Source of the DNA: Halobellus captivus
GTDB lineage: Archaea > Halobacteriota > Halobacteria > Halobacteriales > Haloferacaceae
Direction of reading: 5' to 3'
Length of the DNA: 64,000 nucleotides
Assembly: GCF_003697845.1 (NCBI RefSeq)
Contig: NZ_RDQE01000002.1
Location: 186,001 to 250,000, forward strand
In this document: in pieces, positions 36,388 to 40,349 of the stretch
Numbering within the stretch: the stretch's first letter is position 1
Layout: each line of letters opens with the position of its first letter
Notes under the pieces: model-generated
Databases searched by the model: none
What the model was told of the DNA's origin: nothing
Seen by the model: the letters and a program-made list of their open reading frames with translations, nothing else
Made by a program: the position numbers and the translations under genes

Positions 36388-36696
36388 ATGAATTGTGAGG
36401 TGTGTGGAGAGACTGGTTCGATGCCGTACACCTGTAATCGGTGTGGTCAGACGTTTTGCGTCTCTCATCGCCTTCCTGAGTCACACGGCTGTGGCGGACT
36501 CGAGGTCGAGAAAGCCCACCGAGCCACACTTAGGGAAGAAGGAACAGAAGTTCCTTGGTTCGAGAACGATCGACCCCGATCAAATAATACAGCCGAAAAA
36601 GACTCGATGCCGACTTTGAACACCATCCTCCTCGTCTTGGTAATCCTGCTCGCAACCGCCGGATTCGCGGCTTTCGCTATTTCGTTGATCCTCTAA
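36388..36696 (+). CDS. AN1-type zinc-finger membrane protein
   Basis: A 102-residue protein. The N-terminal AN1 zinc finger is complete with exact spacing C3-x2-C6-x9-C16-x2-C19-x4-C24-x2-H27-x5-H33-x-C35. A polar linker (about 38-75) leads to a C-terminal transmembrane helix (TLNTILLVLVILLATAGFAAFAISLIL, about 76-102). AN1 fingers in eukaryotes bind ubiquitin-pathway and stress-response partners; in haloarchaea similar short fusions are uncharacterised. Codon usage and base composition are more AT-rich than neighbours, suggesting transfer or relaxed bias. A TATA box ~27 nt upstream fits a leaderless transcript. Confidence 0.85.
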   Translation: MNCEVCGETGSMPYTCNRCGQTFCVSHRLPESHGCGGLEVEKAHRATLREEGTEVPWFENDRPRSNNTAEKDSMPTLNTILLVLVILLATAGFAAFAISLIL

Positions 36697-38279: not shown

Positions 38280-38401
38280 GTCGCTTCCTCGGTCCGTAAC
38301 CGGCAAAAAGGTTTCAGTGGGAGCGCCGGCATCGATCTTTCGGGACTCGCGAGAACCCCTGTACTTTCAATACCCGGCGCGTCCAACGTTCCGCTTGGAC
38401 C

Positions 38402-39541
38402 ATGAACATCGCTGATATCGCAGTGCCGGAGTACGTCGAGGTCGACGCCGACGAGCGGCTCGCCAAGGTCCGATCCATCTTCGAGCGTGAGAACCCGAAG
38501 GGAATCGTCGTCACGGAGGACGGCGAGTACGCGGGAGTCGTCGGGGAGAAACAGCTGCTGCGGTCGCGGATGGAGGACGACACGAAGGTCTCCGCCGTCG
38601 TCAAGCCCGCCCCCTCGGTGAAGCGAACGGAGGACGTTCGCGAGACCGCTCGGCTCCTCGTCGAGGGCGACGTGAAGATCGCGCCGGTCTACGAGGGCGA
38701 GAAGCTCTACGGGATCGTGACCGTCGACCAGATCCTCGAGGCCGTCCTCGAGAGCCTCGACGCCATCACGGTCGAACAGATCGTCACGACCGACGTGATC
38801 GGCATCAACGAGAAGGACAGCGTGGGTCGCGCGATAAACTGGCTCCGCGAGAACGGGATCTCCCGGCTCCCGGTGCTCGACGACGACGGGATGCTCACCG
38901 GCGTCGTCACCACGAACGACATCGTGGAGTTCGTCGTCCGCGACCAGGAGCGGCAGGGGAGCGGCGACCGCGCCGGCGACATCGACCGGATGCTCGACCT
39001 CCCCGTCTACGACATCATGTCGAGTCCGGTCGTGACGGCGACCGCCGACGAGACCGCAAAGGAGGCGGTCTCCCGCATGTTCGACAACGACGTCTCCGGG
39101 CTCGTCGTCACTCCCGAAGACGTCGACGCGGTCGCGGGGATGGTCACCAAGACCGACGTGTTGCGCGCGCTCACGTTCACCGAGGAGGACTCGCTCGACG
39201 TCCAGATCACGAACGTCGACCTCCTCGACCGCACCTCGCGGGAACACATCGTCGAGTCGATCGAGAGCGTCGCGGACAAGTACGCCCAGATGCAGGTGAT
39301 GCACGCGCACGTCCGGCTCCACCAGCACAAGGAGAAGCTCCGCGGGACGCCGCTCATCCAGTGTCAGATCCGCCTCCGGACGGACCAGGGCCAGCTCGGC
39401 GGCTCCGGCGAGGGATACGGCGCCGAACACGCCTTCCACGTGGCGCTCGACAAGCTGGAGCGGAACGTCCTCGAGCTCAAGGGCGTCAACGCCGACGAGG
39501 AGTACCGCGGCCAGCTGCTCCGGAAGCTCGGCGAACTCTAG
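38402..39541 (+). CDS. four-CBS-domain protein with a C-terminal HPF/RaiA-like domain
   Basis: A 379-residue cytoplasmic protein. Residues about 1-270 form four CBS motifs in two Bateman modules (MNIADIAVPEYVEVDADERLAKV...; KPAPSVKRTEDVRET...; TTDVIGINEKDSVGRAIN...; MSSPVVTATADETAKEAV...), which usually bind adenine nucleotides. The last ~100 residues (VADKYAQMQVMHAHVRLHQHKEKLRGTPLIQCQIRLRTDQGQLGGSGEGYGAEHAFHVALDKLERNVLELKGV) have the strand-helix pattern and GEGYGAxHA...ALDKLER signature of the S30AE/HPF ribosome-hibernation family. A nucleotide-sensing hibernation factor is inferred. TTTCAATAC at 38364-38372 is a likely TATA box. Confidence 0.82.
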   Translation: MNIADIAVPEYVEVDADERLAKVRSIFERENPKGIVVTEDGEYAGVVGEKQLLRSRMEDDTKVSAVVKPAPSVKRTEDVRETARLLVEGDVKIAPVYEGEKLYGIVTVDQILEAVLESLDAITVEQIVTTDVIGINEKDSVGRAINWLRENGISRLPVLDDDGMLTGVVTTNDIVEFVVRDQERQGSGDRAGDIDRMLDLPVYDIMSSPVVTATADETAKEAVSRMFDNDVSGLVVTPEDVDAVAGMVTKTDVLRALTFTEEDSLDVQITNVDLLDRTSREHIVESIESVADKYAQMQVMHAHVRLHQHKEKLRGTPLIQCQIRLRTDQGQLGGSGEGYGAEHAFHVALDKLERNVLELKGVNADEEYRGQLLRKLGEL

Positions 39542-39638: not shown

Positions 39639-40349
39639 CTAGTCGCCGCTCGCGCCGGCCATCAGCCCCTCCTCCACGATCCTGAACGTCGCGGAGTCGC
39701 CGGCGGGTCTCGAACGGTGTTTCTCCAGCGTCGCCCGCCGGTTGCCGCCGCGGAAGCGGTCGACGCGTACGATCGCGCCGGTCCAGTGGTTGAGCGTGTT
39801 TCCGCCGAGCGCGCGGTCGCGGTCGCTCTCGGGGTCCGTGAACACCTGGTTCGTTATCACCACCGCGACGTCGTGTCGTCGCGCCAGAGAGAGGAGGTGT
39901 GTCACCTGTTTCGCGACCTTCCGGAGCGACTGGCCGCCCTCCGTGTCGTCGGCGCGCTCGAGCCGATAGAAGCCGGTCGCGGAGTCCAACACGATGAGCT
40001 CCACCTCCGCCGCGAGCTCCTCGGCGTCGCGGACGGCCTCGCGCTGGTCCTCGAAGTCGTACGCCTCGGTTATCACCAGCCGGGAGGCCAGTTCCTCGAC
40101 GCTCTCGTCGACGTCCGGACGGTCGATTCGGGCACTCGCCATCTGCTCGAACCGGTCGATCGAGAGCCCCTCGGTGTCGATGAAAAGCGATCGGTCGCCG
40201 GCCGCCGCGACCTCGATCGCCGCGGCGAGCGCGAGGTTGGTCTTGCCCGCGGCGGGCGGGCCGTACACCTGCGTGACGACCCCGCGTTCGAACCCCCCGC
40301 CGAGCAGGTCGTCGACCGACTCACAGCCGGTCGGGATCGGATCGCTCAC
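39639..40349 (-). CDS. radB: DNA repair and recombination protein RadB
   Basis: A 236-residue RecA-family paralogue of RadA found in euryarchaea, acting as a recombination mediator. It consists of the ATPase core only: Walker A GPPAAGKT (30-37), Walker B LIVLDSATG, and the C-terminal GGNTLNHWTGAIVRVDRFRGGNRRATLEKHRSRPAG that marks RadB. The N-terminal helix-hairpin-helix domain of RadA is absent, as expected. Monocistronic and convergent with the CBS gene. Confidence 0.95.
   Translation of the reverse strand: MSDPIPTGCESVDDLLGGGFERGVVTQVYGPPAAGKTNLALAAAIEVAAAGDRSLFIDTEGLSIDRFEQMASARIDRPDVDESVEELASRLVITEAYDFEDQREAVRDAEELAAEVELIVLDSATGFYRLERADDTEGGQSLRKVAKQVTHLLSLARRHDVAVVITNQVFTDPESDRDRALGGNTLNHWTGAIVRVDRFRGGNRRATLEKHRSRPAGDSATFRIVEEGLMAGASGD

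Follow-up and report, generated by a model that had tools for sequence, protein, structure and literature searches.

The closest described relatives of the gene studied here belong to HibA, an archaeal family presented in April 2026 in Nat Commun, whose members combine four CBS domains with an HPF/RaiA domain and are present in 47% of archaeal genomes (PMC13324472). In the cryo-EM structures of the Pyrococcus abyssi protein (PDB 9SR9-9SRF and 9T7H), the HPF domain occupies the mRNA channel of the 30S subunit, with a binding similar to that of bacterial HPF, the CBS disk takes three positions on the 50S subunit, and residues 190-207 reach into the peptidyl-transferase centre (PTC) (PMC13324472). 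HibA inhibits translation in vitro, and its deletion in Thermococcus barophilus resulted in a smaller 70S pool and delayed regrowth (PMC13324472). In haloarchaea, a 2025 study of Haloferax volcanii presented HVO_2384 as a protein with CBS domains in tandem and a hibernation-factor domain at the C-terminus; this protein co-purified with an inactive variant of the acetyltransferase Pat2 (PMC12607858). Its size of 42.5 kDa fits the core Haloferax homologues of 380 aa, and it is by description that we liken it to the protein studied here. The same architecture is found in a 406-aa chain deposited as "CBS domain-containing protein" (PDB 9l96, 9l98, 9l9c and 9l9v), and a literature search found no publication for 9l96.

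Other ribosome-associated proteins share only one half of this architecture. Bacterial HPF/RaiA/YfiA and the chloroplast proteins PSRP1/pY have the fold of the C-terminal domain but no CBS module, and with respect to bacterial HPF two archaeal insertions have been described in HibA (PMC13324472). Dri from Pyrobaculum and the stand-alone CBS proteins SriA-D, observed on Methanosarcina ribosomes (9e7f and 9znf-9zni), form a four-CBS disk without HPF/RaiA domain. Foldseek matched these structures to the N-terminal part of our protein. The composition that defines Dri, namely two CBS modules with eight CBS domains and no HPF domain, was not found in it, as it contains one module plus an HPF domain.

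The gene lies in a stretch of 64,000 nucleotides of Halobellus captivus DNA, referred to here as the window. The features of the locus are the following:

38364..38373, plus strand: promoter-like box CTTTCAATAC; the first T of TTTCAATA lies 37 bases before the ATG
38402..39541, plus strand: hibA, an ORF of 379 aa with ATG start, stop codon included, encoding the four CBS domains and the HPF/RaiA domain
38402..38569, plus strand: CBS1, residues about 1-56 (Pfam, model and column conservation; boundaries approximate)
38585..38758, plus strand: CBS2, residues about 62-119 (Pfam, model and column conservation; boundaries approximate)
38768..38941, plus strand: CBS3, residues about 123-180, with canonical T170-x-x-D173 (Pfam and model)
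38945..38998, plus strand: PTC-loop equivalent, residues 182-199, corresponding to 190-207 of the P. abyssi protein (gap-free alignment)
38999..39172, plus strand: CBS4, residues about 200-257, with canonical T249-x-x-D252 (best Pfam stretch 202-257)
39191..39481, plus strand: HPF/RaiA (S30AE) domain, residues about 264-360 (Pfam on the isolated region, AlphaFold2 topology and Foldseek)
39482..39538, plus strand: C-terminal helix/tail GVNADEEYRGQLLRKLGEL (alignment and conservation)
39639..40349, minus strand: radB, of the Rad51/RecA family, convergent neighbour (Pfam Rad51, E 1.4e-25)

Full-length homologues with 68-98% identity were identified in 68 loci, which shows that hibA is a real and conserved gene. 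The closest ones over the full length are those of Halorubrum species (98-85%), followed by Haloparvum, Halobellus, Haloferax, Halolamina and others (68-78%). The genome to which the window belongs carries one full-length copy, the remaining matches spanning CBS residues only. Pfam identified the four tandem N-terminal CBS domains with an E value of 1.3e-36, and Foldseek comparison of the AlphaFold2 model matched this part to CBS disks.

Among the 50 Foldseek matches listed for the full-length model there were only CBS structures and, for this reason, a separate model of the C-terminal domain was built and searched. AlphaFold2 gave for it (mean pLDDT 80) the order E3-7, H17-30, E36-50, E53-64, E67-76 and H78-115, and nearly all the matches of this model were ribosome-bound HPF, RaiA, YfiA, pY or RafH (best E 6e-6, TM up to 0.69). 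At E below 0.001 there were 25 matches, to HPF/RaiA/YfiA/pY proteins of E. coli, Thermus, Listeria, Mycobacterium and others. In agreement with this, the Pfam profile Ribosomal_S30AE (cut-off 23.7 bits) scored 24.4-25.1 bits with the isolated C-terminus (E about 3-5e-5) and slightly below the cut-off, 21.1 bits, with the full-length protein; it also matched the C-termini of 33 of the 34 homologues. Structures of dsRBDs appeared further down the Foldseek list, which would suit an ordinary CBS metabolic regulator carrying an unrelated, dsRBD-like RNA-binding C-terminus, but the top of that list was filled by HPF/RaiA structures, S30AE exceeded its cut-off for the C-terminus alone, and the end-to-end homologue from P. 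abyssi has been observed on ribosomes, so that such a regulator is extremely improbable. The NCBIfam HPF/YfiA equivalog TIGR00741 reached 16.1 bits versus a cut-off of 40.9, and judged by this score the domain is a fold relative and not a bacterial-type HPF. In a PDB profile search with the C-terminal alignment, only two HibA chains rose above chance and bacterial HPF was not found; the link to bacterial HPF therefore rests on Pfam and the fold.

A PDB sequence search gave the identity of the protein. Residues 3-376 matched residues 6-388 of P. abyssi HibA (9sr9_H) with an E value of 6e-53, with low identity in places, and a second match of the same architecture was 9l96_a (E 2e-74). The protein of the window and that of P. 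abyssi (Pab0961) share the domain order, a near-equal length, the position of the PTC loop, the nucleotide motifs of CBS3 and CBS4 and, in the HPF domain, the motifs EK-x-RG, TD-x-G, GE-x-x-GA and ER. Unlike the P. abyssi protein, that of the window is halophilic and acidic. The gene context is also different, since the haloarchaeal gene is convergent with radB whereas that of P. abyssi is near GINS23.

The original prediction, made from the letters of this DNA, had proposed four CBS domains fused to an HPF/RaiA-like domain at residues 275-379. Pfam, AlphaFold2 and Foldseek confirmed this architecture, and the proposed bounds fit, the modelled domain beginning near residue 264; it is a correct reading of the family now known as HibA. 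The role in ribosome hibernation that it suggested is likewise supported, both by the sequence and fold of the protein and by the P. abyssi homologue of solved structure. Its novelty is low because the HibA family is published, and the architecture of HVO_2384 had been described as well. The idea of a device distinct from bacterial hibernation control stands as regards architecture; the 30S binding of the HPF domain itself resembles that of bacterial HPF.

The PTC-loop equivalent (182-199) aligned with the P. abyssi sequence without gaps, and 10 of its 18 residues were invariant in 34 sequences, compared with 29% in the whole CBS module (hypergeometric p 0.012, a value which is only indicative because these sequences are related). 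Among all 18-residue stretches of the module, the one beginning at residue 184 is the most conserved. The AlphaFold2 model presented low pLDDT at residues 181-186. The HibA authors located the conserved N-terminal residues chiefly in the core of the CBS module (PMC13324472). The unusual conservation of the loop within haloarchaea is a difference from P. abyssi HibA, and the haloarchaeal loop itself is under strong constraint.

In CBS pairs, the T-x-x-D motif touches the ribose of bound adenine nucleotides. The alignment showed this motif in CBS3 (T170, D173) and CBS4 (T249, D252) only, the same pattern as in P. abyssi HibA. By column conservation it is absent from CBS1, and its Asp is not conserved in CBS2. 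D173 was invariant in the 34 core orthologues and also in all 28 rows of an alignment including paralogues and P. abyssi, and T249 and D252 were invariant too. In the P. abyssi protein one nucleotide is held at the CBS3/CBS4 interface, and its CBS module binds AMP, ADP and ATP with Kd values of 12, 65 and 113 uM, respectively (PMC13324472). Thus, AMP binding by the protein of the window is expected by analogy. The original prediction had proposed a polypeptide that could silence ribosomes according to adenylate energy charge; as a direct switch, AMP would put HibA onto ribosomes and ATP would take it off. Both the single conserved canonical site and the roughly 9-fold higher affinity of P. abyssi HibA for AMP than for ATP would agree with such a switch. 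However, in the P. abyssi work, which comprises the only such experiments with a homologue, 5 mM AMP or ATP left its ribosome binding and conformations essentially unchanged, as AMP did not modify the distribution of states and ATP gave only a weakly populated extra state, and native complexes contained no nucleotide (PMC13324472). Since P. abyssi HibA binds AMP while its ribosome states barely respond, that proposal is only partly supported and the switch itself is quite unlikely.

hibA is nearly universal in Halobacteria: with the C-terminal domain, a HibA match was obtained in 291 of 292 genomes of the class and in 146 of the 148 genomes of the taxonomic family. One genome gave no match though it is 96% complete, and the only match in another was weak (E 7e-17) and may be no more than a paralogue. 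About a third of the Halobacteria genomes (101 of 292) had between two and four matches. Those additional copies that were examined measured 402-411 aa, shared about 40% identity with core HibA and had their PTC loop lengthened by a glycine-rich insertion of some 15-26 residues. Their tail is also different, being SKK...FWEKRFGW or similar in most of them, while GVNADEEYRGQLLRKLGEL is typical of core HibA. In a maximum-likelihood tree, core HibA (98/98) was separated from the paralogues (94/92), which formed several subclades. The chain 9l96 was placed among these, so that it belongs to the haloarchaeal clade with the long glycine-rich loop and not to the core clade; the placement of P. abyssi, on a long branch, is uncertain. 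In the surroundings of 20 paralogues, 8 loci had universal-stress-protein-like (UspA-like) homologues and 6 had members of a DUF2267-like family, both named by sequence reading.

Upstream of hibA, the box CTTTCAATAC lies at a near-fixed distance from the gene in orthologues, mostly 37 bases before the ATG in Halorubrum, and reads TTTCAATAC in this genus and TTCAAGA in Halobellus and Haloferax. From its sequence it is promoter-like, and it is not a textbook TATA box. The 10-mer has 2 exact copies in the whole genome, and TTTCAAKA occurs 56 times versus 23 for the reversed control. A regulon sharing the hibA box was rejected: in the 30 TTTCAAKA loci listed, a distance of 37 bases to a start codon was seen for hibA alone, and the few candidates with a different spacing were weak.

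Regarding the neighbourhood, a HAD hydrolase is encoded upstream of hibA on the opposite strand. At 36388-36696 (plus strand) there is also a gene for a short zinc-finger protein of the AN1 type, whose C-terminal part includes a hydrophobic stretch; within the flanks examined, it was present in only 1 of 68 related loci. None of the tested neighbours was conserved across genera with the sole exception of radB, which was near hibA with the relative orientation kept in 61 of 68 Haloferacales loci (about a dozen of them at 3-5 kb) and, among 20 loci from additional genera and families, within about 2.5 kb in 13. By contrast, radB was adjacent to none of the 20 paralogues whose loci were examined. 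This preference for the core gene favours a further, non-ribosomal role in which HibA would bind RadB or RadA, either to keep itself in reserve or to link recombination as well as replication to the state of growth. In addition, Pab0961 co-purified with RadB, a Sir2 deacylase and GINS23, and an interaction of Hvo_2384 with RadA and RadB has been cited as a personal communication (PMC3820547); the HibA authors themselves raised the possibility of a partner that sequesters HibA (PMC13324472). On the other hand, abundant ribosome-associated proteins can contaminate affinity purifications, convergent genes are not co-transcribed, and CBS is not mentioned in the main text of the paper on RadB of Haloferax. 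The pairing and the co-purifications therefore make the recombination link a testable second role, unproven and, in our opinion, tentative and rather doubtful. It is unlikely that HibA is both tied physically and genetically to RadB, acting partly on idle ribosomes and partly with the machinery of recombination, and accompanied by long-loop, new-tail paralogues that tune which ribosome state is blocked.

Taking all this into account, the gene of the window very probably encodes the core haloarchaeal HibA, a hibernation factor that blocks and protects idle 70S ribosomes (probability about 0.92). This analysis contributes to that reading the architecture, the fold, the family assignment by sequence, the conservation of loop and nucleotide motifs and the near-universality in Halobacteria. 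We infer that the protein acts like HibA of Pyrococcus and Thermococcus, the relatives that provide ribosome binding, translation inhibition, AMP binding and the deletion phenotype, although molar salt, through its effect on ribosome chemistry, could change the binding. In stationary phase or under stress, the HPF/RaiA domain would occupy the mRNA/tRNA channel of the 30S subunit, the tethered four-CBS disk would fill the vacant tRNA sites of the 50S subunit, and the loop between CBS3 and CBS4 would enter the PTC. In this way HibA would keep idle 70S ribosomes together, stop translation and protect the ribosomes until growth returns. One adenine nucleotide, preferably AMP, probably sits between CBS3 and CBS4, and it would tune the availability of HibA or its binding to partners instead of switching ribosome binding on and off.

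What is still of interest in this locus is that hibA pairs with radB, that the loop is conserved and that haloarchaea possess HibA paralogues. In the publications consulted we found neither the class-wide pairing nor the long-loop paralogues, and both can serve as leads. As genetics is easy in Halobacteria, the energy sensing by HibA and its links to RadB and to lysine acetylation are directly testable in these organisms. If true, the sharing of HibA with RadB would couple the shut-down of translation to genome maintenance.
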